A DNA stretch of 10,667 nucleotides from Desulfovibrio sp. (GTDB lineage Bacteria; Desulfobacterota; Desulfovibrionia; Desulfovibrionales; Desulfovibrionaceae), in the NCBI GenBank assembly GCA_028708195.1, contig JAQVZK010000051.1:1-10667 (forward strand), given 5' to 3'. Positions 1-10,667 of this stretch are shown piece by piece. Both the position numbers and the translations under genes were made by a program. The notes below the pieces were generated by a model. It searched no databases and was not told the origin of the DNA. It saw only the letters and a program-made list of their open reading frames with translations. How positions within the stretch are numbered: position 1 is the first letter of the stretch; each line of letters opens with the position of its first letter.

Positions 1-1
1 G

Positions 2-205
2 CAAAACCGGCTGGAGAACACCATCTCCAACCTTACCACTCAGTCCGAAAACCTGCAGGCGGCCGAATCCCGCATTTCAGACGTGGACGTAGCCACGGAA
101 ATGACGGCATTCGTGCGCAACCAGATCCTCACCCAGTCTGCTGTGGCCATGCTTTCGCAGGCTAACAGCATGCCTCAGATGGCGCTTTCGCTCATCTCCA
201 GGTAG
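2..205 (+). CDS. fliC: Flagellin, C-terminal fragment (5' end outside window)
   Basis: The reading frame that is open from base 2 encodes the last 67 residues of a flagellin, the subunit of the flagellar filament exported through the flagellar type III apparatus. The fragment is the C-terminal D1/D0 helix: it reads ...AAESRISDVDVATEM followed by FVRNQILTQSAVAMLSQAN and ends MALSLISR, matching the classic pattern SRI.D.D.A.E......QIL.Q...AML.QAN..P...L.L. This amphipathic helix packs in the core of the filament and is also needed for export and chaperone binding. The stop at 203-205 is followed 79 bases later by a strong terminator, so this is the end of its transcript. Motile bacteria of this type often carry several flagellin copies; which paralogue this is cannot be told from the tail alone. 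Confidence 0.93.
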   Translation, partial: QNRLENTISNLTTQSENLQAAESRISDVDVATEMTAFVRNQILTQSAVAMLSQANSMPQMALSLISR

Positions 206-283
206 GGCTGGAGAACCAGGTGGTGGAGGGCGCTTGCCCTTGATAGCCTTGTGGCAGGGGAGTGCTGCACGGCAATAAAAATT

Positions 284-320
284 AAAACTGCCGGTCTGTC
301 ATTGACAGACCGGCAGTTTT
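284..320. terminator. Bidirectional intrinsic terminator between flagellin and the hydrolase gene
   Basis: A perfect 17-bp inverted repeat (284-300 with 304-320) with a 3-base loop has a GC-rich core, ACTGCCGGTCTGTC, flanked by AAAA and TTTT. The plus strand continues with a further T run (322-326) and the minus strand continues into T-rich sequence, so it can end both the plus-strand flagellin transcript and the minus-strand transcript coming from 1068. The two genes are convergent, as expected for a shared terminator. Confidence 0.9.
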
Positions 321-381
321 GTTTTTGCGGCTGGCGCAAGCCAACCGTACTTTCTGACCAGCCGTACAGTTTTTGGCCTGC

Positions 382-1068
382 TCAAGCAGTAAAGGGGCGC
401 GTCTGGCCAGGGGCCATGACGGTGCAGGCGCAGGGGAGCGTAAGCTTGGCAAGCTCTGCCTCAAAAGTTTTTGTGTCCTGCGCCAACACGGGGAAAGTTC
501 CCCAGTGCATGGGCACCACTGCTTTGCACTTGAGCAGTTTACAGGCCAGGGCGGCCTGCGCCGCGTCCATAGTAAAAACGCCGCCAATGGGCAGCAGAGC
601 CACGTCAATGGAGTAGAGCTGCCCCCACAAGGCCATGTCGCCAAAAACGCAGGTGTCGCCCGAATGGTAGACGGTGAGGCCGTCAGGCATGCGCACGATG
701 TAGCCCGCCGGGCAGCCCGAGTCGCTGGTGTGGAAGGCCTGGGTCATAGTGACGCTGACCCCCTTGTGCGTAACGGTGCCGCCCATGTTGAAGCCAATAC
801 CGTTGAGTATCTGGTTGTCGGGCAGCCCAGCAGCGGCATTTTGTGCCGTGCCGACAATGGCCCCCAGCATGGCCCCGGTTTTGTGGCATATGCTCACGGC
901 TTCACCCACATGGTCGCCGTGGTCGTGGGTCAGAAGAACAATATCGGCGTGGCCCACAGTGTCTGCTGTAAAGCCGTACTGGGGCGCCAGAAAAGGATCA
1001 ATGACAACATGGGTGTCATGGCAGCTGATTTTGAAAGCCGAGTGCCCAAACCATGTGATACTGCTCAT
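382..1068 (-). CDS. Metal-dependent hydrolase of the metallo-beta-lactamase fold (UPF0173 type)
   Basis: This 228-residue protein belongs to the small YtkL/UPF0173 branch of metallo-beta-lactamase-fold hydrolases, cytoplasmic proteins of unsettled substrate. The metal-binding set is intact: ITWFGHSAF at the N-terminus (residues 4-12), LLTHDHGDH (45-53, ligands H48, H50, D52, H53), AFHTSDSG (H113), VYHSGDT (H135, D138) and PMHWGTFP (H188). The length equals the family norm. The ATG at 1066-1068 is preceded by AGAGGAG eight bases upstream, a strong ribosome-binding site that fixes the start. There is no signal peptide or membrane segment. It lies downstream of the ubiX-type gene on the same strand, but 319 bases containing a repeat separate them, so co-transcription is doubtful. 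It converges with flagellin on the terminator at 284-320. The fold and metal site are firm; the physiological substrate is not known. Confidence 0.9.
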
Positions 1069-1091
1069 ATGTGTCTCCTCTGAAATACTTT

Positions 1092-1190
1092 GGGGGAGGA
1101 CTTTTTTGTATCTTGGAGTGTTTTGTGGGGGAGGGACTCTTTTGTAAAAGGGGCCTTCCCCCCCACGCCCCCCCCCTAAAACTTTTATTT
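1092..1190 (-). repeat. G-rich palindromic intergenic repeat, copy A
   Basis: This element shares its two ends with the one at 8066-8134 in opposite orientation. The left end reads GGGGGAGGACTTTTTTG, then TTGGAGTGTTTTGTGGGGGAG. The right end is CCCCCTAAAACTTTTATT. The core (1120-1182) can fold because GTTTT-GGGGG faces CCCCC-TAAAAC. Copy A carries about 30 extra bases in the core, including GACTCTTTTGTAAAAGGGGCC, compared with copy B. Read on the minus strand it follows the ubiX-type gene and precedes the hydrolase gene. I associate such G-rich palindromes with intergenic regions of Desulfovibrio genomes; that family link is from memory and not verified here. Confidence 0.65.
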
Positions 1191-1387
1191 ATACTTCAAT
1201 CTGCTGCAAAGAGTTCCCTGACTAACGCCGGGTTTTTATGAGCAAAGCCTCTTAAGTCTGCCACTGCCGCACCTTTGATCCGCGCTAGAGAATTTTTATT
1301 TGAAATGCCAGCTCAATACGGTACCTGACTGGAAAAAATGGCTTTTTGACGCAGTCAGTTGGACAAAGAATTATTTTGAGACAGCCT
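1191..1387. other. Non-coding spacer between ubiX-type gene and repeat A
   Basis: No convincing gene, RNA or strong terminator is visible in these 197 bases. The T- and A-rich patches (1234-1237, 1291-1300, 1336-1347) and a weak CTGACT/AGTCAG inverted repeat (1325-1330 with 1355-1360, long loop) are the only structure. The minus strand holds a TATAAA at about 1188-1193 that could be a -10 box for the hydrolase gene, but no good -35 partner is present. Confidence 0.4.
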
Positions 1388-2047
1388 TCAGCCGGTCCAG
1401 CGGCCCAGGGTATGCGGCAGCGCCACCTGATCGAATATCCGGCCGCACATATGCAAGAGCATGTCTTCCAGTGTTTGCGGATTGAGATAAAAACCGGGCG
1501 AAAATGGCATGATGACGGCCCCGGCCTCGCGCAACGCAAGCATGTTGCGCAGATGAATGGCCGAGAGTGGGCTTTCACGCGTGACCAGCACCAGAGGCAA
1601 CCGTTCCTTGAGGGCTACATCCGCAGACCGGTGCACAAGGTTGCGCGTGGCCCCCGAGGCTATGGCCCCCAAGGTGCCCATAGAACAGGGCACCAAAATC
1701 ATGGCCGCAGGCGCAGCCCCTCGCCGCCACCACGAGCCACTGGACGGCCCGGCCCCAAGGTTGGCCGCATCATAAACACGGCTGGCGTGCGTCGTCAGCA
1801 GTTCTGGCCCGGCCCCGCATTCTGTTTGCAACACCGCGTGCGCCCCCTGTGAGACAACACAGTGAACCCGCACCAAGGGCATGGCCGACAGGCAGCGCAA
1901 CAGGCAGACCGCGAGCGGCATGCCGCTCGCACCGCTGACGCCCACCAGGATGTCGCGCACAGCGGGGTCAGAAGCCGGGGTTTGCTCTGTAGAGGCCTGT
2001 GGGGCCAAGGGTGATGGAGTCGCGGGTGGGGGCGTTGTGTCTGACAT
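1388..2047 (-). CDS. ubiX: UbiX/Pad1-type flavin prenyltransferase
   Basis: This 219-residue flavoprotein is of the UbiX family, which joins dimethylallyl phosphate to reduced FMN to make the prenylated flavin cofactor of UbiD-type decarboxylases. The phosphate-binding GVSGASG loop is at residues 36-42, the glycine-rich PCSMGTLGAIASG stretch at 120-132, the conserved RLPLVLVTRESPLS at 149-162, and PFSPGFY, the counterpart of the usual P..PAFY, at 181-187. The open frame extends upstream to 2155, but the ATG at 2045-2047 has AGGGAG just upstream and family-like length follows, so it is preferred. The first 30 residues are proline-, threonine- and alanine-rich and precede the Rossmann-like core; such a leader is not part of the family core. 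No ubiD partner is present in the window, so the cofactor must serve an enzyme encoded elsewhere. Confidence 0.93.
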   Translation of the reverse strand: MSDTTPPPATPSPLAPQASTEQTPASDPAVRDILVGVSGASGMPLAVCLLRCLSAMPLVRVHCVVSQGAHAVLQTECGAGPELLTTHASRVYDAANLGAGPSSGSWWRRGAAPAAMILVPCSMGTLGAIASGATRNLVHRSADVALKERLPLVLVTRESPLSAIHLRNMLALREAGAVIMPFSPGFYLNPQTLEDMLLHMCGRIFDQVALPHTLGRWTG

Positions 2048-2197
2048 TATTCTTCTCCCTGTCGGCCCAACTGATGAAACTCGCCGGGCTGCCTTGGGTA
2101 TGCATACCTGACAAAAAAGCGCCATGCAAATAAAGGGCGGCAACTGAGATCTCATGCCCCGTGGCAGATATGCCCGCCCCAGTCAGGCAGGTACGCC

Positions 2198-2279
2198 GGG
2201 CAACAAAGCTCCTGCGTCGGGCGGTAAAGCTCCTGCGGCGGGGAACAATCCTGTGGCCGGGAGGCAAGGCTCTCGCGCC
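2198..2279 (+). repeat. Four imperfect tandem repeats of about 21 bp
   Basis: Units at 2198-2218, 2219-2239, 2240-2258 and 2259-2279 each begin GGG and end in a GC-rich triplet such as GTC, GGC or GCC. Units 1 and 2 share AAAGCTCCTGCG; unit 3 is 19 bp and more diverged, and unit 4 has AAGGCTCTCGCG. The array sits between the divergent ubiX-type gene and the tRNA-Arg promoter, ending 10 bases before the -35 box. An open frame runs through it, but this is a by-product of the 21-bp period. Confidence 0.6.
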
Positions 2280-2289
2280 GGGCGCGCCC

Positions 2290-2318
2290 TTGACAGCAGA
2301 GACGAGTCGGCATATCAA
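2290..2318 (+). promoter_or_regulatory. Sigma-70-type promoter of the tRNA-Arg gene
   Basis: A perfect -35 hexamer TTGACA (2290-2295) is separated by 17 bases from TATCAA (2313-2318), a fair -10. Transcription would start near 2325, about six bases before the mature tRNA 5' end, which fits a single-tRNA transcript. Confidence 0.6.
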
Positions 2319-2330
2319 GACAAATCTTGT

Positions 2331-2407
2331 GCGCCCGTAGCTCAGTCGTATAGAGCGTTGGCCTCCGGAGCCAAAGGCCGTGCGTTCGAATCGCGCCGGG
2401 CGCACCA
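2331..2407 (+). tRNA. tRNA-Arg (anticodon CCG)
   Basis: A complete cloverleaf folds here: the acceptor stem GCGCCCG pairs with CGGGCGC, the D arm is GCTC...GAGC, and the anticodon stem TTGGC/GCCAA encloses the loop CTCCGGA with anticodon CCG at 2365-2367, reading the arginine codon CGG. The T arm contains GTTCGAATC. The discriminator A and the 3' CCA (2405-2407) are encoded in the DNA. It has its own promoter and terminator and is a single-gene unit. Confidence 0.97.
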
Positions 2408-2417
2408 TAATGAATTC

Positions 2418-2452
2418 AAGCGGTTAGTTGTAAAAAGCTGACCGCTTTTTTT
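2418..2452 (+). terminator. Intrinsic terminator of the tRNA-Arg gene
   Basis: The arms AAGCGGTTAG (2418-2427) and CTGACCGCTT (2438-2447) form a 10-bp stem with one G-T pair and a 10-base loop, followed by a run of seven T (2446-2452). It lies 11 bases after the tRNA CCA end. Confidence 0.85.
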
Positions 2453-2463
2453 GTGGTTTTTGT

Positions 2464-2487
2464 GGCTCTACACCAAAGACGGGGGCA
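2464..2487 (+). repeat. Left copy of a perfect 24-bp inverted repeat
   Basis: The sequence begins GGCTCTACACC and ends AAAGACGGGGGCA. It is the exact reverse complement of 8900-8923. It lies 12 bases beyond the T run of the tRNA-Arg terminator and 170 bases before the Bro-N-type gene. Outside the 24 bp the two copies diverge, apart from a shared GCGT three bases further in. Starting with GG at the outer end resembles insertion-sequence ends such as those of the ISL3 family, but no transposase gene is present. Confidence 0.8.
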
Positions 2488-2657
2488 AGGCGTGAGGTGT
2501 GGCAATCCCGGTCAGCTTTGGCTAGGATTAGGAGCACAGCGCTCCAACTGGTTTTTATGACTATTTGGTTGGCGCACAGGCCCACTGACCGAAGCTGAAT
2601 AGATAGGCTGGTTTGAGTCTGGCGATGTTTTGGGGCGTGGATTGATGTGAGGAACAA

Positions 2658-3476
2658 ATGACCAAAGAAGAAATCGCAGCTTTTGAAAGATGGCATGTTC
2701 GCCGCCAGTTCGATGAAGAGACCGAGACCTGGTATTTTTCGGTGGTGGATATTGTTGCGGCGTTGACGGAGCAGCAAGATTTTCAAACATCTCGCAAATA
2801 CTGGAACAAGCTTAAAGAACGGCTAAAAAAGGAAGGAAGCGAACTGGTGACAAAATGTCACCGGTTGAAGCTAACTGCCGAGGATGGTAAGAAAAGGCTT
2901 ACCGACGTTGCCGACGTTGAAACCCTTCTCCGCCTTATCCAGTCAGTCCCAAGCCCAAAAGCCGAGCCTATCAAGCTCTGGCTGGCCCGCATCGGGTATG
3001 AGCGCATCAAGGAAACGGAAGACCCTGAGGCAGGGATTGCCCGCGCCCGTTCTGTTTGGAAAAAGCAAGGGCGCTTTGATGACTGGATTAACCAACGCAT
3101 GCTGAGTGTTCGTGTCCGTAACTCCCTCACTGACTTTTGGGACGAACACGGGATAAAAGAGGGCGTAGAGTTCGCCCGCCTCACTGGCATCACCCACAAG
3201 GAATGGACTGGGCTTTCTGTACGCCAGCACAAAGAATTAAAAGGGTTGAAATCACAAAACCTGCGCGACCATATGAGTGATGCGGAGCTTGTTCTGACAA
3301 TGTTGGCGGAAATTTCCACAAAGCAGATTGCCGAGAATATGGACGCAACCGGCTTTGACAAAAATGCCGAGGCGGCCAAAGAGGGCGGCGGGGTCGCCAA
3401 GAAAGCCCGTGAAGAATTGGAAAGCAAATCTGGGAAGTCCGCGCTGTCTGGAAGCAATTTTTTGCCGAAGAAGTAA
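2658..3476 (+). CDS. Bro-N domain protein with DinD-like C-terminal domain
   Basis: This 272-residue protein combines an N-terminal Bro-N domain (about residues 14-113; FSVVDIVAALTEQ and LTDVADVETLLRLIQSVPSP are typical) with a C-terminal half resembling E. coli DinD and its chromosomal relatives (about 150-268; TGITHKEWTGLSVRQHKELK, LRDHMSDAELVLTMLAEIST, GFDKNAEAAKEGG). Bro-N domains bind DNA and are known from phage antirepressors and baculovirus BRO proteins; DinD is SOS-induced and modulates RecA filaments. The exact role here is unknown. GAGG five bases before the ATG supports the start. It is the first gene after tRNA-Arg and the left 24-bp repeat, a position typical of acquired genes, and has no phage genes beside it. 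It looks intact and transcribed alone; I see no LexA box of known type upstream. Confidence 0.88.
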   Translation: MTKEEIAAFERWHVRRQFDEETETWYFSVVDIVAALTEQQDFQTSRKYWNKLKERLKKEGSELVTKCHRLKLTAEDGKKRLTDVADVETLLRLIQSVPSPKAEPIKLWLARIGYERIKETEDPEAGIARARSVWKKQGRFDDWINQRMLSVRVRNSLTDFWDEHGIKEGVEFARLTGITHKEWTGLSVRQHKELKGLKSQNLRDHMSDAELVLTMLAEISTKQIAENMDATGFDKNAEAAKEGGGVAKKAREELESKSGKSALSGSNFLPKK

Positions 3477-3835
3477 GTAGTGGCGCCTACAGCCTCTTAG
3501 CCCCTGCCCTTCAACGTCCTGATGCGGGTGCTGAGCTCGGTTCCGGTCAATTGAGCATGGTCTTTGCCAAACTCCCTGTAGCTCAGGGTCGCTGCCGATT
3601 GTCCTTTTTCTGAGCGATTTTTTGACCAGCCCGACCTGCTTTGACGATGCGGGTTTTGAGCCTCCACCATTGAGCATGGCCCTGTCTTGCGGTCTGTCCT
3701 GTGGCTCTTGAGAGTGTGCACCCGCGCATGATATACATCATATAATTCATTGTAGTTCTGTTGGGCCATGCTTTGGTGTGGGCCTTTTAAAAATGACAAC
3801 TGATATTGACAAGCGTATATTACATACTAAATTAA
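3477..3835. other. Region without a firm gene; weak minus-strand ORF 3497-3769
   Basis: The only open frame of note runs on the minus strand from ATG 3769 (or TTG 3799) to 3497. It would give a basic, hydrophilic 90-residue protein starting MAQQNYNELYDVYHARVH. I do not recognise it. A minus-strand promoter-like pair, TTGTCA then TAAAAG with 17 bases between (about 3785-3813), stands upstream, but there is no ribosome-binding site before the ATG. Two copies of ATTGAGCATGG lie at about 3550 and 3670. It may be a real small gene, a decayed remnant that came with the Bro-N gene, or non-coding. Confidence 0.3.
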
Positions 3836-3924
3836 TAAGGCTTCGTTGGCCCCTGATGACGCTCTTCGAGTGACAACAGGAGAAGCAGCCCGCCGGGATT
3901 AGCCCGAGCGGGCTTTTCTTTATT
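3836..3924 (+). ncRNA. Candidate short non-coding RNA (promoter, structured body, terminator)
   Basis: TTGACA (3806-3811) and TAAATT (3828-3833), 16 bases apart, would start a transcript near 3840. An intrinsic terminator follows at 3887-3924, giving an RNA of roughly 80 bases with no start codon and ribosome-site pair. Its body can fold: CCTG (3851-3854) pairs with CAGG (3877-3880), and CGCTC pairs with GAGTG around a three-base loop, with an internal loop between the two stems. I do not recognise it as 6S, SRP or tmRNA. It could instead be a leader or an element relic; evidence is structural only. Confidence 0.3.
3887..3924 (+). terminator. Intrinsic terminator after the candidate RNA
   Basis: AGCCCGC (3887-3893) and GCGGGCT (3908-3914) form a 7-bp GC-rich stem with a 14-base loop, followed by TTTTCTTTATT. 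The plus-strand orientation fits a short transcript from the promoter at 3806-3833, or read-through from the Bro-N gene 410 bases upstream. Confidence 0.65.
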
Positions 3925-4317
3925 GGTGAAAGCGGGTTGCCTTTACAGGGGGCATGCCTGAAGGGCGTGCCAAGGGTTATACGTTGCTTTCTGCAGTAAA
4001 CCTGTGCTGGTAGGCTTTGTGCTGCAACTCTGACCCGGTTCAGAACGATGGGCCATCAACATGGTTGGCAGTGGCTTATCAACAATGGATACCATATGGG
4101 TAGTGTAATAATAGTAGCTGTTTTGTGTAGTTGAAATAAGGCCTATAGCTTGCAAAATTTTCTCCGATATGTTGTTAAGAAAGCCCCTGTAAATCAGAAA
4201 TATCGACGGCGTTTGTTGACGTCGCCTTACTCCCGTGCAACCTGCAAACACTGCAGTAGCGTATATTAACTCAAAAAAGAGCCGATTTTTTTCAACTCTT
4301 AGCCAAGCAGCATCACT
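3925..4317. other. Upstream region of the chemoreceptor gene
   Basis: These 393 bases are AT-richer than the flanking genes and hold no credible gene. Shortly before the chemoreceptor start, GCCGATTT (4281-4288) matches the -10 core of flagellar sigma-28 promoters. Eleven bases upstream, TATATTAA (4262-4269) is only a poor match to the -35 element. An 11-base string, AGCGTATATTA, occurs both at 3812-3822 and at 4258-4268. A small CGACG/CGTCG inverted repeat lies near 4204-4222. A flagellar-type promoter is plausible but weakly supported. Confidence 0.35.
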
Positions 4318-6081
4318 ATGAATTCATTCTCGTTACGTGGAAAATTTATTCTGACAATTACCATTGGGGCTGCGGCCCTTGCCATCATGTTCGGCTTTTC
4401 TCTCGACTCGGTATCCACCTTGAGCCGTTCCTTTTCGCAAATGCGAGACGTGGACGTGGTGGGCAAAATTACCAGTCTTGAAATCGCCAAGGACATTAAC
4501 TATGTAAGCCGTCTTACCCGCGACGCCATGCTGGGTGGTGACCTGGAAAAAGACATCAAGCAGCAGAGCGAAATTGCTGCCCGCAGTGAAAAGCGTTTTC
4601 AGCAGCTTGCCACAATGCCATTCAGCAGTCAGGAAAAAAAGATCATCTCCGAGGCCCAAAAAGCCGCCATCAGCTTTATAGCCAACGGACGGGACGTGCT
4701 TTTGCCGCTCAAGGGCGTTCCGGTTGGAGAGCGCCACAAAAGCTACAGTGACTATGCCAAGGTGGCCACCCCGTACGCTATGGCGTACCGCGAACAGGGC
4801 GGCCAGTTCGACAAGGCCATGAATGCCCGTTTTGACGAGGGCTTGCGGGTCATGCAAAAGCAGATCGAGCAAAGCCGCACCAATATGTGGATAGTGCTGG
4901 CGGTTTCTATGCTGGCTATCTACGGCGTGGGTTTTCTCTCCACCAGTCGCGACCTCAACGTCATGCGCCAGTGCGAAGTCTTTGCCCGCCAATTGGGTTC
5001 TGACAATCTGGACGCCAGGCTGGATACCAGCAAAAAATCATCCCTCACGCCTCTGGTGCAGGCCCTGAACGCCACGGCAGACAATCTTGCCGGATTTAGG
5101 GCTGAAACACTCAAGGCCACAGCCGAGGCCCAGAAAGAGCGTGATGAGGCGCAAGAGTTTATGAAGCAGGCCCAAGAAGCCAAGGAAAACGCCGAAAAGG
5201 CCAAGGCCGAGGGCATGCTTTACGCCGCAAACCAGCTTGAGGCTGTTGTGCAGGCTCTCAACCTTGCCTCTGACAATCTTTCTACGCTTATTCATAGCGC
5301 TGACAGAGGTTCCATACAGCAGGCTGACCGCGTGCGCGAAACGGCGTCTGCTATGGAGCAGATGAACGCCTCCATGCTGGAGGTGGCGCAAAGCTCGTCC
5401 CACGCGGCCGATACCGCCGACCATGCCAGAAGCAAGGCCCAGGAAGGTTCTTCATCTGTTACGGATCTGCTCGACAACATCCGCCAGGTGCAGCAACAGG
5501 CCGAAGAAATGAAAGAAGGCATGACCGGGCTTGGCGTGCAGGCCGAGGCCATCGGCAAGGTGCTGAATGTCATTGCCGACATTGCCGACCAGACAAACCT
5601 GCTGGCCCTCAACGCTGCCATTGAGGCGGCCCGCGCGGGCGACGCCGGGCGCGGCTTTGCCGTGGTGGCCGACGAGGTGCGCAAACTGGCTGAAAAAACC
5701 ATGATGGCCACCCGCGAAGTAGGGGAGGCCATTGGCGGCATTCAGTCAGGCACCAAGCACACGATTGACGTTGTGACCCGCACGGTATCGCGCATTCAGG
5801 GCGCGGGCGATCTGGCCGACCAGTCTGGCGCGGCCCTGGCCGAGATTGTGTCAATGGTAGATATGACTACCGACCAGGTGCGTGCCATTGCCGCCGCTTC
5901 GGAAGAACAGTCCACCGCCAGCGGAGAAATCAACCGCAGCCTGGACGAAGTGGACAGGATTTCGGGAGAAAACGCCGACTATATGCATCGGTCTTCCGAG
6001 GCCATTTCTGAGCTTTCTCGCCAAGCCAATGTGCTGCAGGGGCTTATCAGCGAAATGAAGCAGGGCGGTGGCGAATCTTAG
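4318..6081 (+). CDS. Methyl-accepting chemotaxis protein (transmembrane chemoreceptor)
   Basis: This 587-residue chemoreceptor senses signals outside the inner membrane and controls CheA kinase through CheW. Transmembrane segment 1 is at about residues 9-29 and segment 2 at about 189-209. They enclose a mainly helical periplasmic domain of some 160 residues, resembling four-helix-bundle sensors. A HAMP-like linker (about 210-262) leads into a long coiled coil. The highly conserved hairpin tip, [20 protein letters not shown] continuing to [20 protein letters not shown], spans 417-457. A glutamate- and alanine-rich adaptation region lies on both sides. The C-terminus ends GGGES and lacks the aromatic pentapeptide that tethers CheR. 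The ATG at 4318 has no strong ribosome-binding site, but later starts would lose segment 1. The ligand cannot be inferred. The gene appears to be a single unit, as scattered receptor genes in such genomes often are. Confidence 0.96.
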
Positions 6082-6113
6082 AGCAGATTAACTTTGAAAA
6101 AGTTAATCTGCTC
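6081..6113. repeat. Perfect 15-bp hairpin at the chemoreceptor stop codon
   Basis: The arms GAGCAGATTAACTTT (6081-6095) and its complement (6099-6113) enclose the loop GAA. The first arm starts on the last base of the stop codon TAG. No T run follows on either strand, so it is not a standard intrinsic terminator. It may protect the mRNA 3' end or be a dispersed palindrome. Confidence 0.8.
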
Positions 6114-6165
6114 CGGGGCAGAGTGCCATTAAGGTCGCGCAGTCCAAAAAATTACGACACTAATA

Positions 6166-6214
6166 AACGAGCAGAGCAGGTTGCCATTGAACACAGTGAC
6201 CTGCTCTGCTCGTT
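6166..6214. repeat. 16-bp inverted repeat with structured loop
   Basis: The arms AACGAGCAGAGCAGGT (6166-6181) and 6199-6214 are perfectly complementary. Within the 17-base loop, CATTG can pair with CAGTG around AACA, giving a long hairpin with a three-base bulge. The minus strand continues TTTATT after the stem, a weak terminator signature; the plus strand has none. Confidence 0.75.
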
Positions 6215-6227
6215 GGCATGCCCCGCC

Positions 6228-6256
6228 GGGCAGGGCACCATGCGCAGTGCCTGCCC
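6228..6256. repeat. GC-rich hairpin upstream of dgt
   Basis: GGGCAGGGCAC (6228-6238 region) pairs with GTGCCTGCCC (6247-6256) with one bulged G and an eight-base loop. No T run follows. It is the third successive hairpin after the chemoreceptor gene. Confidence 0.5.
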
Positions 6257-6458
6257 CTACCCAGGCTGCCGCGTGGATTCTGACGGCCTTGTGCGCGAGG
6301 CAGCCCTATGTGGCTTTTGCCGCCGGGGTTGACGAAAGCAGATATAAACCCCACTTTGCCCAGTGACCGCAAGCCTCGCATATATTTGCTCTCGGCGGGA
6401 TGTACAGGGGGCGAACCGCGAAGCGGAGGCCGTTATTTTACAGATGGAAGGAGAATGT
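6257..6458 (+). other. Leader region of the dgt gene
   Basis: The open frame of dgt extends upstream into this stretch from a GTG at 6363, but the good ribosome-binding site is at 6446-6453, so this is taken as untranslated. TATATT (6380-6385) could be a -10 box; TTGCCC 19 bases upstream is a poor -35. Nothing else is recognisable. Confidence 0.35.
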
Positions 6459-7802
6459 ATGGGCAGCCATAAAGAGCAATGGAGCCGTTTGCTGGCTCCT
6501 TACCGCAAGACCCGTAAAGACAAACAGCCTGCCCCTCTGGATGTGGTGCGTAATCCCTTTGTGCAGGACTATGACCGCATCATCTTTTCCAGCTCCTTCC
6601 GCAGGCTGGCCAAAAAAACTCAGGTGCACCCTCTGGTGCGCAACGACCATATCCATAACCGTCTCACCCATTCGCTTGAGGTAAGCTGCGTTGGCCGTTC
6701 GCTGGGCCTTCAGGTTGGCCAGGCCCTGACGGATATGGGGCATTTGCCGGATGGCGTCCGCCCCGACCACCTTGGCCAGATCCTTCAGGCGGCGTGCCTT
6801 GCGCACGACATCGGCAATCCGCCCTTTGGGCATGCCGGGGAGGAAGCCCTTCGCGACTGGTTTAAGGACACAAGCCACACCGAGCATTATTTTAAAGATC
6901 TGCTGCCTGTCGAACGGGCGGATTTTGAAGCTTTTGACGGCAATGCCCAAGGCTTTCGCGTTATTAATACGCTTGAAAACAATAAGGATGCTGGCGGCTT
7001 GCGGTTGACGTTCCCCGTGCTGGCCAGCCTTGTAAAGTACCCCTGTTCTGCTCATGAGGCCCTGGGGCAGGGCAGCGGAAAGTTCAATTTTTATAGGGCG
7101 GAGCAGGAAGTTTTTGCGGATATTTTTACCACGCTGGGCCTGATGCGTGATGGCCTGGCGTGCCGACATCCGCTTTCCTACCTGCTGGAGGCGGCCGACG
7201 ACATCTGCTACCGCATCATTGATATGGAAGACGCGCGCGAGTTGCGCATCATCACCTATCAGGACATCAAGGACGCCATGACGCCGCTGCTGGGCGAGGA
7301 GGATATGGACGCAGGCCGCCTTGACGCGATGGATTCTGACCGGCGGCGCTCGGGCATGCTGCGCACCCGGGCCATGATGCACATCATCCCCTCGGTGGTG
7401 CAGACATTTTTTGATACCTATGAAGATATGATGAAAGGCACGCTCAAGGGCGATTTGCTCAAGCACGCCAAGCCGGAAGTGGCGGACTTTATGGCTGCGG
7501 CCAAGGGGGTCTTCAACAGCAAGATCATGAATAATCCGCAAAAAACCGCTCTGGAAATCGGCACCTACACGCTGTACAAGCGCCTGATGGATGTCTTTAT
7601 TCCAGCCTGCTTCAACTACAGCAAAAAGAATTCCATGTCCTATCAGGAAACGCGCGCTTTGACCCTTATGGGCAGCAATGCCCCGGCAGAGGGCGCGTGC
7701 CTGTATACGGCCTATCTGCGCGTGGTGGATTTTGTGTCTGGCATGACAGACGACTACGCTACCTTTATTTCACAGCAGTTTTCGGGCACGGCGGCCCAGT
7801 AG
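6459..7802 (+). CDS. dgt: dGTPase-family HD hydrolase (deoxyguanosinetriphosphate triphosphohydrolase)
   Basis: This 447-residue cytoplasmic enzyme belongs to the dGTPase branch of the HD superfamily, which removes tripolyphosphate from dNTPs and so controls nucleotide pools; some members limit phage DNA synthesis. Recognition features are RNPFVQDYDRIIFSSSFRRL (31-50), KTQVHPL (53-59), NRLTHSLEVS (67-76) with metal ligand H71, the HD pair in LAHDIGNPPFGHAGEEAL (114-131; H116, D117) and AADDICYRIIDMEDA (245-259) with the fourth ligand D near 247. Length is typical. AAGGAG five bases before ATG 6459 decides the start over the upstream GTG at 6363 and ATG at 6444. It stands alone, after three hairpins and 377 bases from the chemoreceptor gene, and faces the minus-strand kinase gene. 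Confidence 0.95.
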   Translation: MGSHKEQWSRLLAPYRKTRKDKQPAPLDVVRNPFVQDYDRIIFSSSFRRLAKKTQVHPLVRNDHIHNRLTHSLEVSCVGRSLGLQVGQALTDMGHLPDGVRPDHLGQILQAACLAHDIGNPPFGHAGEEALRDWFKDTSHTEHYFKDLLPVERADFEAFDGNAQGFRVINTLENNKDAGGLRLTFPVLASLVKYPCSAHEALGQGSGKFNFYRAEQEVFADIFTTLGLMRDGLACRHPLSYLLEAADDICYRIIDMEDARELRIITYQDIKDAMTPLLGEEDMDAGRLDAMDSDRRRSGMLRTRAMMHIIPSVVQTFFDTYEDMMKGTLKGDLLKHAKPEVADFMAAAKGVFNSKIMNNPQKTALEIGTYTLYKRLMDVFIPACFNYSKKNSMSYQETRALTLMGSNAPAEGACLYTAYLRVVDFVSGMTDDYATFISQQFSGTAAQ

Positions 7803-7927
7803 CCAGGCGTCCCAGTTGCCCCCCTGCCTGCCGCACAGTGACCAGATAGTACAGCGCCCCGGTCGCAGCAGATCAGAAAAGAAATTTGGGCGGCGCAAAT
7901 GCCCGGCATCGGGGCCATACATCGCAG

Positions 7928-7981
7928 AAAAAGCACAATCCCCGTAAAGCCTGATCAATCAGGTTTTACGGGGATTGTGCT
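7928..7981 (-). terminator. Intrinsic terminator of the adenylylsulfate-kinase-like gene
   Basis: Arms 7932-7954 and 7959-7981 form a 23-bp stem with a single G-T pair and a TCAA loop. On the minus strand the stem is followed by TTTTTCTG; on the plus strand no T run follows. It therefore ends transcription coming from 8721, about 150 bases after that gene's stop, and might also slow transcripts from dgt. Confidence 0.8.
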
Positions 7982-8024
7982 CTGTATAAGGATCGGGGAC
8001 TGTCTTGTCTTTGGGCTGAACACC

Positions 8025-8045
8025 CCGCCTCGCAACTGGAGGCGG
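8025..8045. repeat. Short GC-rich hairpin
   Basis: CCGCCTC (8025-8031) pairs perfectly with GAGGCGG (8039-8045) around GCAACTG. It has no T run and lies between the kinase gene's terminator and repeat B. Its role is unknown. Confidence 0.45.
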
Positions 8046-8065
8046 CTGTAGCTTACTGCGGCACG

Positions 8066-8134
8066 AATAAAAGTTTTAGGGGGAAGGGGTGGCTCCCCCA
8101 TAAAACATTCCAATATGCAAAAAATCCCTCCCCC
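8066..8134 (+). repeat. G-rich palindromic intergenic repeat, copy B
   Basis: On the plus strand it begins AATAAAAGTTTTAGGGGG and ends AAAAAATCCCTCCCCC, directly abutting the minus-strand stop codon at 8134-8136. Both ends match copy A (1092-1190) when reverse-complemented, with a few substitutions. GTTTTA-GGGGG faces CCCCC-TAAAAC (8073-8106). Alternatively TAGGGGGAAGGG can pair with CCCTCCCCCTA at the far end, so two mutually exclusive folds exist. In both copies the AATAAAAGTTTTAGGGGG end comes first when read in the direction of the preceding gene (dgt here, ubiX-type gene for A). Confidence 0.65.
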
Positions 8135-8721
8135 TACAGCGCGAAGCTGTGGCTCCGGCTGGTCAGTGCCAGCGGGCTTTCGGGCAGGGTATGCCCCATG
8201 CGTGCCCAGTTGTGGGCTTCGTCCAGGGCGCTCAGGGCGAGATCGCGCAAAAGCAGGTAGCTTTCCACCAGGCTGTGGCGGTCAGTATCTATTACATGGT
8301 CAGCGTGGCGGGGTTCATCAAAGGCGTCGGTAAGGCCGCACAGGCCGCTTACGTGCGTACATCCGGCCTTGGCGTAGAGGCCTCTGGTGTCACGGTCAAC
8401 CAGGGTTTGTAGTGAGCAGCGCACCCATACTTCGCGGTACCAGGGCAAAATTTCGCGGTTTTTCTGGCGCATGAAGGCATAGGGGGTGGTGGCCGCCACA
8501 ACGCACACCCTGTCCTGGGCGTGCTGCTGCAGCACGTGGTCACGCAAGGCATCCACAGCGGAAATGCGCGTTTCTGGGACAATATCGGTCTGGCGGCAAA
8601 ATCTGCCTTCATCAATAAAGTCGGTTTTAATGCCCTGCCCCTCAAGGTACAGCCGCAAAAGAGAACCAAGGGCGGTTTTGCCGCTGCCAGAAAGGCCCAG
8701 CAGCCAGATCACAGGCGTCAT
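8134..8721 (-). CDS. Divergent adenylylsulfate (APS) kinase-like protein
   Basis: This 195-residue P-loop protein resembles CysC, which phosphorylates APS at the 3' position to make PAPS, the sulfate donor. GLSGSGKT (9-16) is the nucleotide-binding loop, and RDTRGLYAKA (110-119) with CGLTDAFDEP (128-137) and VIDTD (143-147) match the CysC signatures KGLYKKA and TGI..PYE.P. Divergences are clear: the DGD.VR segment is IDEGRFCRQ (36-44), the FS..DR.ENIRR segment is hardly recognisable, and TG is replaced by CG at 128-129. The substrate may therefore be APS or something related. ATG 8721 has GAGG about six bases upstream. The gene has no partner such as a sulfate adenylyltransferase or a sulfotransferase nearby and its own terminator, suggesting a single unit. 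Confidence 0.78.
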   Translation of the reverse strand: MTPVIWLLGLSGSGKTALGSLLRLYLEGQGIKTDFIDEGRFCRQTDIVPETRISAVDALRDHVLQQHAQDRVCVVAATTPYAFMRQKNREILPWYREVWVRCSLQTLVDRDTRGLYAKAGCTHVSGLCGLTDAFDEPRHADHVIDTDRHSLVESYLLLRDLALSALDEAHNWARMGHTLPESPLALTSRSHSFAL

Positions 8722-8899
8722 ACTTACCTCGCTTGCTCGCGCGTTGCGTTGGGCGCGGATGCCGCGCCAAAGAACGTCTGTAAAAATGCAATAACCCGGC
8801 CATCTTATAAAAGATGTAATATTTTATGCAGATATGACGTTGGGACAGGGGGCTGCGCGCATTTTTGACATGCGGCACGTGGTCGGATTGGGGACGCTA
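8722..8899. other. Spacer upstream of the kinase-like gene
   Basis: No gene is visible. It contains a bulged GC-rich hairpin (TTGG-GCGCGG with CCGCGCCAA, 8749-8770) and a short CATCTT/AAGATG hairpin near 8802-8817 next to an AT-rich patch that could hold the minus-strand promoter; TATAAG on that strand is a possible -10, without a clear -35. Confidence 0.35.
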
Positions 8900-8923
8900 T
8901 GCCCCCGTCTTTGGTGTAGAGCC
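8900..8923 (-). repeat. Right copy of the perfect 24-bp inverted repeat
   Basis: On the plus strand it begins TGCCCCCGTC and ends TTTGGTGTAGAGCC, the exact reverse complement of 2464-2487. Its outer end points to the tRNA-Asp/tRNA-Val unit, whose terminator starts 49 bases away. Together the two copies bound 6460 bp. Confidence 0.8.
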
Positions 8924-8947
8924 AGCCGTGTAGAGCCGTGTAGAGCC
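8914..8947 (+). repeat. Three copies of GTGTAGAGCC at the right repeat tip
   Basis: Copies of the 10-mer lie at 8914-8923, 8928-8937 and 8938-8947. The first is the outer end of the 24-bp inverted repeat; the other two repeat only that tip, the second set off by AGCC and the third directly adjoining. The left repeat at 2464 has no such extra tips. Confidence 0.8.
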
Positions 8948-8971
8948 ATCAACGAGGTGGGGAAGCAAAAT

Positions 8972-9003
8972 GAAAAAGAGGAGTCAGTAAACTGACTCCT
9001 CTT
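8972..9003 (-). terminator. Intrinsic terminator of the tRNA-Val/tRNA-Asp unit
   Basis: AAGAGGAGTCAG (8976-8987) and its complement (8992-9003) form a 12-bp stem with a TAAA loop. On the minus strand it is followed by TTTCATTTTG, extending the stem's own T residues to a run of five. It starts 8 bases after the CCA end of tRNA-Asp. Confidence 0.85.
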
Positions 9004-9011
9004 AAACTTTC

Positions 9012-9088
<77 letters not shown>

Positions 9089-9096
9089 GGATTTGT

Positions 9097-9172
9097 TGGT
9101 GGGCAGTACAGGACTTGAACCTGTGACCCCCGCCGTGTGAAGGCGGTGCTCTACCAGCTGAGCTAACTGCCC
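9097..9172 (-). tRNA. tRNA-Val (anticodon CAC)
   Basis: The minus strand folds as a full cloverleaf: acceptor GGGCAGT/ACTGCCC, D arm GCTC...GAGC, anticodon stem CCGCC/GGCGG with loop TTCACAC and anticodon CAC (9137-9139), reading GTG. The T arm reads ACAGGTTCAAGTCCTGT. Discriminator A and an encoded CCA are present. It is the first gene of the two-tRNA unit. Confidence 0.97.
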
Positions 9173-9185
9173 TCCCGGAGACACG

Positions 9186-9214
9186 TTTCTATGCAAAAGT
9201 ACCCCAGGAGTCAA
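9186..9214 (-). promoter_or_regulatory. Promoter of the tRNA-Val/tRNA-Asp unit
   Basis: On the minus strand TTGACT (9209-9214) and TAGAAA (9186-9191) are exactly 17 bases apart. Transcription would start some 6-8 bases before tRNA-Val. Directly upstream (9215-9290) is a very AT-rich stretch with A and T tracts, as in UP elements of stable-RNA promoters. Confidence 0.6.
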
Positions 9215-9445
9215 GAGAAAATTATATGGTAAAAAAATTTTTACAAGGCAAAAAAATTATCTATATGATTTTATTGTATAAAACTGAATTTTGGTCAGCC
9301 TTGTGTTTTCATTGTCTTGCGCCGGGGCGGGCTGAGTGCTAGACCCTCCGTTAGCACTTCTTGCGGTTGGCATGTGTGGCATTGGCCAGAGTACGCCCGC
9401 CAAAATGGCCCGGCGGGGAAGTGACAGCAGTTTTTTAGAGGCAAT
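9215..9445. other. AT-rich divergent promoter region and deacetylase leader
   Basis: The part 9215-9295 is strikingly AT-rich, with GTAAAAA/TTTTTAC forming a small inverted repeat (9230-9245), and separates the minus-strand tRNA promoter from the plus-strand deacetylase gene. TATAAA at about 9279-9284 may be the deacetylase -10 box, without a clear -35. Downstream, GAGTGCTA/TAGCACTT (9334-9341 with 9352-9359) and CCCGCC/GGCGGG (9396-9401 with 9412-9417) can fold in the leader. Neither has a T run. Confidence 0.4.
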
Positions 9446-10564
9446 ATGATGAAATCCTTATGGATTCGCCTTTGGGCGGTATTTTTTTTCGGTTTGACGT
9501 TATCAGCCGCTTCTGCCTCTGAGGCCCGCGTGGTGGACGGCGGCGTCATTATGGATCAGCGCATGCGTGAAAACCTGTGTGCGCTGACCTTTGACGACGG
9601 CCCCTCCCTCAATACTCCACGGCTGCTGGATATGCTGAGTGAATATGGCATTCCGGCCACATTTTTTCTTTTGGGCAAGCAGGCCGAGCGCTACCCGTCG
9701 TTTGTGCAGCGCATTGTGGCTGAAGGGCACGAGGTGGGCAATCACACCTATTCGCACCCCAACCTGCGTTTGCTTTCGCCTGCAAACAAGACGCAGGAGA
9801 TTGCCCGCACGGATGCGATTCTTCGCTCGCTTGGGGCCAATCCTTCCTTCATGCGTCCCCCATATGGGTCTTATGACAACCACACGGTGACCGCAGCCGA
9901 GCAACTGGGCCTGGCGGTCATGCTCTGGTCGCTGGACAGCCGCGACTGGAAAAGCCTGCCCGCCAATTATGCGACCTTGCGCAGCACGCGGGGCACGGTG
10001 TATGGACCCGGCACCCTGCGCGGTATTTTTCTTTTTCATGATACGCACAGGCGCACGGTTGAAGACCTGCCCCGCATTATCAGCGATTTGCGCGCCGGGG
10101 GCTGTCAGCGTTTTGTGACCGTGAGCGACTACCTGGACGGGTTGATTGATCCTGAGCCGGGCGTGCTTATGACCCGCCGTACGCAGCCCACAGGGCAACC
10201 TGACGGGATGGGCCCCAGTGGCCTTGCCCCTGCCGCCGAGGCCCGCAAGATTGAACAGCCCCCCCAGAACAAGGAAAGTTTTCAGGAACTGCCGCCAGAG
10301 AGTTACCCCGCTGGCACAGCTACTCTGCCCTTGGCCCGCACCAGCCGCCCCTGGCAGGTAGTGGAAGACGCCGCCGGGGAGCTTCAGTCAAACGCCCATA
10401 GTGACAATCAGGGCAGCGCTAGCGAAGGCAGGCAGGCTAATCAGCCTGAGGGGCTGCAGCCCCTGCACCGCGGCGCCCCCGTTGCTCCTGGCCCCAATTC
10501 GGGCCTGCCCGTGGGCGGGGCTGTTTCCCGGCCAGCCGTAACTGGGGAGCCCGCCGGGGCCTGA
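9446..10564 (+). CDS. Secreted polysaccharide deacetylase (NodB/CE4 family) with proline-rich tail
   Basis: This 372-residue exported enzyme removes N- or O-acetyl groups from a polysaccharide, possibly peptidoglycan. The signal peptide is residues 1-24 (KSLWIRLWAVFFFGLTLS, cleavage after ASA). The NodB domain spans about 44-232 with all five motifs: TFDDGP (48-53, catalytic base D50, metal D51), NHTYSHP (99-105, metal H100 and H104), RPPYGSYD (137-144), WSLDSRDW (161-168) and IFLFHDTH (194-201, catalytic H198). Residues from about 240 to the end form a proline-, glycine-, alanine- and glutamine-rich tail with no recognisable domain, probably disordered. AGAGG stands four bases before ATG 9446 and seven before the second ATG 9449; either may be used. 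No neighbour points to a specific polymer. Confidence 0.93.
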   Translation: MMKSLWIRLWAVFFFGLTLSAASASEARVVDGGVIMDQRMRENLCALTFDDGPSLNTPRLLDMLSEYGIPATFFLLGKQAERYPSFVQRIVAEGHEVGNHTYSHPNLRLLSPANKTQEIARTDAILRSLGANPSFMRPPYGSYDNHTVTAAEQLGLAVMLWSLDSRDWKSLPANYATLRSTRGTVYGPGTLRGIFLFHDTHRRTVEDLPRIISDLRAGGCQRFVTVSDYLDGLIDPEPGVLMTRRTQPTGQPDGMGPSGLAPAAEARKIEQPPQNKESFQELPPESYPAGTATLPLARTSRPWQVVEDAAGELQSNAHSDNQGSASEGRQANQPEGLQPLHRGAPVAPGPNSGLPVGGAVSRPAVTGEPAGA

Positions 10565-10667
10565 ACCTGCTGACCTGCCTGATCAGGTGACCTGCCTGGC
10601 TGTGCGGCAATGATGCGGTCACCCTGTATACAAAAAGACCCCCGGTTTGGTCTGTCCCTTTGCCACG
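10565..10667. other. Downstream spacer with short direct repeats
   Basis: TGACCTGCCTG occurs at 10571-10581 and 10588-10598, flanking the palindrome CCTGATCAGG (10578-10587). AGACC/GGTCT (about 10636-10653) is too short a stem to call a terminator with confidence. No gene is seen before the window ends. Confidence 0.4.

Follow-up and report, generated by a model that had tools for sequence, protein, structure and literature searches.

Two short inverted repeats beside tRNA genes of a Desulfovibrio contig as probable solo tips of a putatively terminator-directed ISL3-family insertion sequence

We analyzed a 10,667-nt stretch of Desulfovibrio sp. DNA (contig JAQVZK010000051.1, positions 1–10,667; hereafter the window), in which positions 2464–2487 are the exact reverse complement of positions 8900–8923, forming a 24-bp inverted repeat around a 6.46-kb block that lies between two tRNA units. 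Both 24-mers very probably represent outer tips left by a single kind of ISL3-family insertion sequence (IS), which inserted twice, independently, and has since decayed at both places; its right end, i.e. the end after the transposase gene, is probably directed to terminators. Counts of tip positions in related genomes showed that this right end has a preference for a site about 70–105 nt past a tRNA gene, just beyond the intrinsic terminator and facing the tRNA. As the two tRNA units of the window are convergent, two such tips come to lie inverted with GG outermost, which is the entire reported pattern. An earlier note on this DNA had left three interpretations side by side: a composite element bounded by the repeats, a pair of unconnected solo IS ends, or a dispersed motif following tRNA genes; the first was not supported, whereas the other two were and coincide, the motif being an IS tip.

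The repeat as an IS end

Sequence comparison identified an ISL3-family IS as the source of the 24-mer, which forms its terminal repeat. Within the genome of origin (2.3 Mb in 344 contigs) the motif was found at 12 places with at most 3 mismatches of 20, and on contig C159 it stands ~80 nt after the carboxy-terminus of an ISL3-family transposase, an arrangement shared by the complete, single-contig genome G100 of the window's genus. G100 carries four two-ended copies, at loci L132 (1374 bp), L133 (1375 bp), L134 (1377 bp) and L135 (1375 bp), with imperfect terminal inverted repeats that read GGCTCTACCTCAAAGACGGGGGC on the left and GG(C/G)TCTACACCAAAGACGGGGGC on the right; the two IS ends differ, the left one reading GGCTCTACCTCAAAGACGGGGGCATAGCG and the right one GG(C/G)TCTACACCAAAGACGGGGGCAAGCCCCTTC. 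A 417-residue transposase frame is present in L132 and L135, L133 is open across the full transposase query, and L134 matches residues 107–417 only. The L135 protein scored 278 bits against NF033550, the NCBIfam ISL3 model (cut-off 180), and 224.9 bits against PF01610 (cut-off 23), bearing out the family assignment that the earlier note had guessed. Among close relatives of the transposase, the best-named one is from Maridesulfovibrio (62% identity), and no solved structure matched it in sequence.

Of 395 genomes covered by a phylum-level transposase search at E 1e-60, 3 gave a match, each of them from the genus of the window, and the exact 20-mer occurred across the genome collection in three records, two from Bacteroidota and one from a deltaproteobacterial metagenome-assembled genome. 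The plasmid search gave no match for window positions 2400–2700; with the IS as query, four Legionella adelaidensis plasmid records matched, over 9–11% of the IS length only. Single matches with one mismatch in G006, G026 and G030 did not rise above the reversed-pattern control and were disregarded. Genome G108, from a different genus, carries a related IS in five identical copies, four of which show an 8-bp duplication. These 8-bp duplications speak against long duplications of the IS1202 type, which a 28-bp direct repeat around the intact L135 copy (positions 1940–3314, G100) had suggested.

Right-end tips beyond tRNA terminators

The discovery set comprised six genomes of the window's genus and yielded 44 non-nested right-end and 25 left-end tips, leaving out tips with less than 60 nt of sequence outside, tips within 60 nt inside a same-strand tip, and duplicates; tips lying in other IS sequence (five right-end, two left-end) were counted apart as nested. 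Terminators were called with a simple in-house script rather than a published predictor. A tRNA gene lay within 200 nt of 30 of the 44 right-end tips, in each case reading toward the tip and never away from it, as compared with 2/25 left-end tips, both of which belong to IS nests of G100 (L132, L133). In this tally the window's right tip is entered with the farther tRNA of its pair, at 174 nt, the nearer one being 89 nt away. Likewise, a terminator aimed at the tip was called within 100 nt for 32/44 right-end versus 2/25 left-end tips (Fisher p 1.6e-7), with 42/660 for intergenic and 24/600 for random control positions. Nested tips had neither a terminator nor a tRNA (0/5 right-end and 0/2 left-end for both).

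For the complete genome G100, 11 of 17 right-end tips followed a tRNA unit, a count in which one iterated site figures twice, and random placement gave a mean of 0.02 with a maximum of 2 in 20,000 sets. Ten of its 39 tRNA units are occupied, or 12 if left ends are counted. The tips lie beside tRNA genes far above chance and at a preferred distance, as expected of a tRNA-directed element. Rfam searches of 19 discovery and family loci with non-tRNA tips gave six matches, all to tRNA, although one of them, 70 nt outside the L183 tip and not called by ARAGORN, was weak (29.8 bits, cut-off 29).

Searching 348 genomes of the order with the motif alone gave matches in 21 genomes from 6 genera. Outside the discovery genomes there were at least 50 tip clusters among the matches listed, 13 of which had been retrieved earlier; the remaining 37 constitute a fresh set from 14 genomes, six of which had yielded other tips before. 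Here, 23/37 tips were faced by a tRNA at no more than 200 nt that reads toward them, and none had one reading away, while a terminator was aimed at the tip in 25/37 and away from it in 5, so that 30/37 were accompanied by a tRNA or a terminator. Rfam analysis of the 14 fresh loci without a tRNA within 200 nt identified one rRNA operon and two tRNAs, the latter with tips ~256 nt past them. The rRNA operon is that of L277 (295–409, in G204), where the distance from the 5S rRNA gene to the right-end tip beyond it is 91 nt, and rRNA operons may therefore also be targets. The habit that the earlier note had considered, of a dispersed motif following tRNA genes, is supported by the discovery, G100 and fresh sets alike.

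As a negative control, we inspected 2.8-kb stretches around distant ISL3 transposases (26–30% identity over the matched part) from five genomes of the window's family and found a tRNA in 2/40; three of these stretches (L221–L223) mismatched their comparison copy, and L213 and L214 matched only partially.

Taken together, the tRNA-linked tips (n = 64, some from one nest) use 15 isotypes and lie at a median of 83.5 nt from the tRNA end, with quartiles of 73 and 103 nt. For the 55 tips with a terminator call, the distance between tip and terminator was independent of the gap between tRNA and terminator (rho 0.02, p 0.88), and the distance between tip and tRNA rose with this gap (rho 0.35, p 0.009). 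These distances are weakly indicative of a terminator-based ruler, as there is little variation in the gap and the first correlation in part entails the second.

Alternative readings and proposed targeting

The main rival explanation is a survival bias, in which the IS inserts widely and persists only in harmless spots such as those past tRNA terminators. The evidence comes entirely from standing genomes and several copies are decayed, as such a bias would have it, but we regard it as unlikely. The end-specific orientation and the distant-ISL3 control both speak against it, as survival bias alone leaves unexplained why right rather than left ends face tRNAs (30/44 versus 2/25) and why so few stretches around distant ISL3 copies (2/40) hold a tRNA. 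In addition, near-intact copies occupy such sites too, namely L133, L134 and L135 in G100 and three of the five copies in G108, which follow tRNA-His at 94 nt, tRNA-Ala at 77 nt and tRNA-Pro at 72 nt.

Several observations weigh against a terminator-directed right end. No tRNA was found within 200 nt of 14/44 right-end tips of the discovery set and of 14/37 fresh tips, and in a group of 18 tips from family relatives and G209, which includes one tip of the discovery set, only 8 lie within 200 nt of a tRNA. Two of the five identical G108 copies have neither a tRNA within 200 nt nor a terminator call. A terminator-like signal aimed away was present at 17/44 right-end tips, as many hairpins are two-way. 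The window's own genome contains transposase fragments only, an 8-bp duplication was not found around any copy in the window's genus, and the direct repeat around the intact L135 copy measures 28 bp, not 8 bp. Finally, all support consists of positions in standing genomes.

With terminator-directed insertion as the preferred explanation, the transposase would pick sites past tRNA terminators during integration. The cue would most likely be the terminator hairpin, or the state of DNA and RNA polymerase at a heavily used terminator, rather than the tRNA sequence, given that 15 isotypes are used and the distance between tip and terminator does not change with the gap between tRNA and terminator. 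The transposase itself or a host factor might meet the hairpin or the terminating RNA polymerase. Later copies would then enter or adjoin older tips, and recombination together with deletion would strip the IS bodies, leaving tips and miniature elements behind. More generally, the data lean towards an ISL3 clade in these sulfate-reducer-like bacteria that homes right-end-first, one way round, downstream of stable-RNA units (tRNA and, in at least one case, rRNA) via the terminator or the terminating polymerase; as part of the same proposal, this clade would be a bacterial DNA-transposon counterpart of tRNA-seeking retrotransposons, and tip-only scars would log past visits.

Tip relics in the window

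The repeat finder confirmed the exact 24-bp match and extended the pair to 31 nt at 94% complementarity (2463–2493 / 8894–8924). A 23-nt pattern matched the window twice, both times exactly, and in none of 200 shuffles of the window, in line with the claim of the earlier note that a chance origin is negligible. GG is outermost in both 24-mers and both tips face tRNA units, the nearest tRNA 3′ end being 57 nt away on the left and 89 nt on the right; the flanking tRNA genes and their direction toward the block, also part of that note, were recovered by ARAGORN (Table 1). Beyond 24 nt the two copies differ, the left one continuing with AAGGCG and the right one with ATAGCGTCCCC. Outside the right copy follow two 10-nt and one 4-nt tip pieces, the outermost of which, at 8947, is 65 nt from tRNA-Asp.

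Table 1 Tips, terminators and tRNA genes at the two edges of the block
Feature	Position	Strand	Basis
tRNA-Arg (CCG), left target unit, reads toward left tip	2331..2407	+	ARAGORN
Intrinsic terminator of tRNA-Arg	2418..2455	+	Hairpin -17.4 kcal/mol and T run; in-house script and reading of sequence
Left copy: 26-nt solo right-end tip of ISL3-family IS	2464..2489	+	Sequence comparison
Right copy: 36-nt solo tip, right-end outer sequence and left-end interior	8888..8923	-	Sequence comparison
Iterated tip pieces (GGCTCTACAC, GGCTCTACAC, GGCT) outside right copy	8924..8947	-	
Intrinsic terminator of tRNA-Val/tRNA-Asp unit	8971..9003	-	Hairpin -19.1 kcal/mol and T run; in-house script and reading of sequence
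tRNA-Asp (GTC), right target unit, reads toward right tip	9012..9088	-	ARAGORN
tRNA-Val (CAC), in tRNA-Asp unit	9097..9172	-	ARAGORN

Many copies in these genomes are partial, comprising two-ended miniatures, fragments and solo tips, and solo tips resemble the IS for ~20–50 nt only, the full IS being ~1375 bp long. At the solo tips L003, L165, L013, L152, L151 and L026 this resemblance often ends at 26–32 nt, which approximates the terminal-repeat length. Miniature elements with two ends, measuring 51 bp (C188, own genome) and 69 bp (L033 and L162, in G025), have close terminal repeats without a transposase gene, as is characteristic of miniature inverted-repeat transposable elements; a partner end was not found within 1.5 kb of either window copy. 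Reading of the flanks of the miniature elements revealed no target duplication. Chimeric tips resembling the window's right copy are also present at C39 and C188 and could come from an exchange between the two ends of one IS. Iterated tips at other copies are spaced by 17 or 27–28 nt. At L132 and L133 of G100 some IS copies are nested within others or abut them, so that iterated tips could simply stem from insertions that recurred at a single site and then recombined. The L132 and L133 nests themselves sit between tRNA units and include a fold-back of a left-end fragment.

These features might alternatively reflect mobility in trans, with tips and miniature elements being moved by the IS transposase and the window tips having arrived as tips. 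The existence of two-ended miniatures is compatible with this, as is the end of many solo tips within 20–40 nt as opposed to an IS of ~1375 bp; nevertheless we consider it quite unlikely, as each window copy is one-ended, while DDE transposases normally act on two ends, and as no target duplication was seen around the miniature elements. As judged from their sequences, the window contains two tip-only relics that are mutually independent, in agreement with the solo-IS-ends reading of the earlier note: the motif is an IS terminal repeat and each window copy has one end. The lack of an 8-bp duplication around the pair fits such one-ended relics.

Gene order across the block

Pfam models for Bro-N, MCP signalling, HD (dgt-like) and APS-kinase matched the inner genes, as the earlier note had named them. 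We compared 11 loci around the APS-kinase homologue using tblastn and ARAGORN. In G021, mcp–dgt–APS kinase–tRNA-Asp–tRNA-Val–deacetylase are contiguous, an order retained from dgt onward in G036, and in G002 mbl–ubiX–tRNA-Arg–APS kinase–tRNA-Asp–tRNA-Val–deacetylase are contiguous, in all three cases without the motif. A 24-mer-like match was absent at 10 of the 11 loci, and the eleventh (L145, in G013) has two such matches, located ~120 nt beyond the tRNA-Asp gene of that locus. At the right site, the G021 alignment is gapped where the window has the tip, within a diverged stretch; at the left site, no useful alignment to G002 was obtained past the tRNA. Other loci are rearranged, such as a G017 stretch with APS kinase and dgt and no tRNA, and the Bro-N gene (window 2658–3476) was detected at none of the 11 compared loci.

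This bears directly on the possibility that the repeats are the two ends of a single 6.46-kb composite or transposable element without its transposase. While the perfect inverted match at both edges would suit such an element, the motif is dispersed in the genome, the copies differ after 24 nt, and gene order crosses the edges without the motif in G021, G036 and G002, rendering this reading extremely improbable. On these grounds, 2464–8923 is apparently no mobile unit and lacks the attributes of a composite transposon, and the tips enclose ordinary chromosomal genes.

Relation to known systems

tRNA genes are well-known landing sites of phage-type integrases, which recombine within the tRNA gene. 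If our reading is true, a DDE IS that uses the space past tRNA terminators, at 15 isotypes and in fixed orientation, would represent a different, host-sparing site choice. Its landing habit looks unusual for bacteria, and a limited literature search, without ISfinder, found no bacterial IS described as landing past tRNA terminators. With ISL3-family IS (NF033550 / PF01610) the element shares the transposase family, GG-starting terminal repeats, a length of ~1.4 kb and, in the G108 relative, 8-bp duplications; it differs by its oriented site past tRNA terminators, by the scarcity of tRNAs in the distant-ISL3 stretches and by a habit not described in the literature searched.

The Dictyostelium retrotransposons TRE3 and Skipper are found ~100 bp downstream of tRNA genes (PMC5006619), and yeast Ty1 and Ty3 are tRNA-directed, RNA polymerase III factors guiding Ty3 (PMC5911963). 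In these accounts the tRNA-gene neighbourhood, the many isotypes and the downstream distance resemble those of the IS, whereas elements and enzymes are unrelated and the RNA polymerase III factors of Ty3 are absent from bacteria. Group IIC introns insert beside the stem-loop of Rho-independent terminators (PMC7923331) and share the site next to the terminator stem-loop, but they move by a ribozyme and reverse transcriptase in an RNA-based manner rather than by a DDE transposase. IS1202-family elements lie at dif sites in one orientation and at a fixed offset, one subgroup having 16–28-bp duplications (PMC10132070); the single orientation and fixed offset from a chromosomal landmark are common to both systems, whereas the IS1202 transposase family is another one and its landmark is the XerC/XerD site. 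In Enterococcus faecium, DNA carrying vanHAX and ending in an ISL3-family element had entered the terminator of an rRNA operon, flanked there by an 8-bp duplication (PMC11702846), a possible parallel, although the cases reported are individual events under selection and not a preference for a target.

If true, the habit would resemble that of the tRNA-directed retrotransposons of compact eukaryotic genomes, and it makes a testable question of the way in which the termination of transcription could be sensed by a bacterial transposase. In practical terms, it would account for the short inverted repeats found next to tRNA genes of these genomes.

A second dispersed repeat

The window contains a further dispersed repeat, AAAAGTTTTAGGGGG with G/C-rich flanks, which likewise forms an inverted pair, at 1172–1186 (- strand) and 8069–8083 (+ strand). 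The pair spans 46 nt at 74% complementarity in the window, and the window's own genome has 16 exact occurrences of the 15-mer, compared with 0 for the reversed-pattern control.

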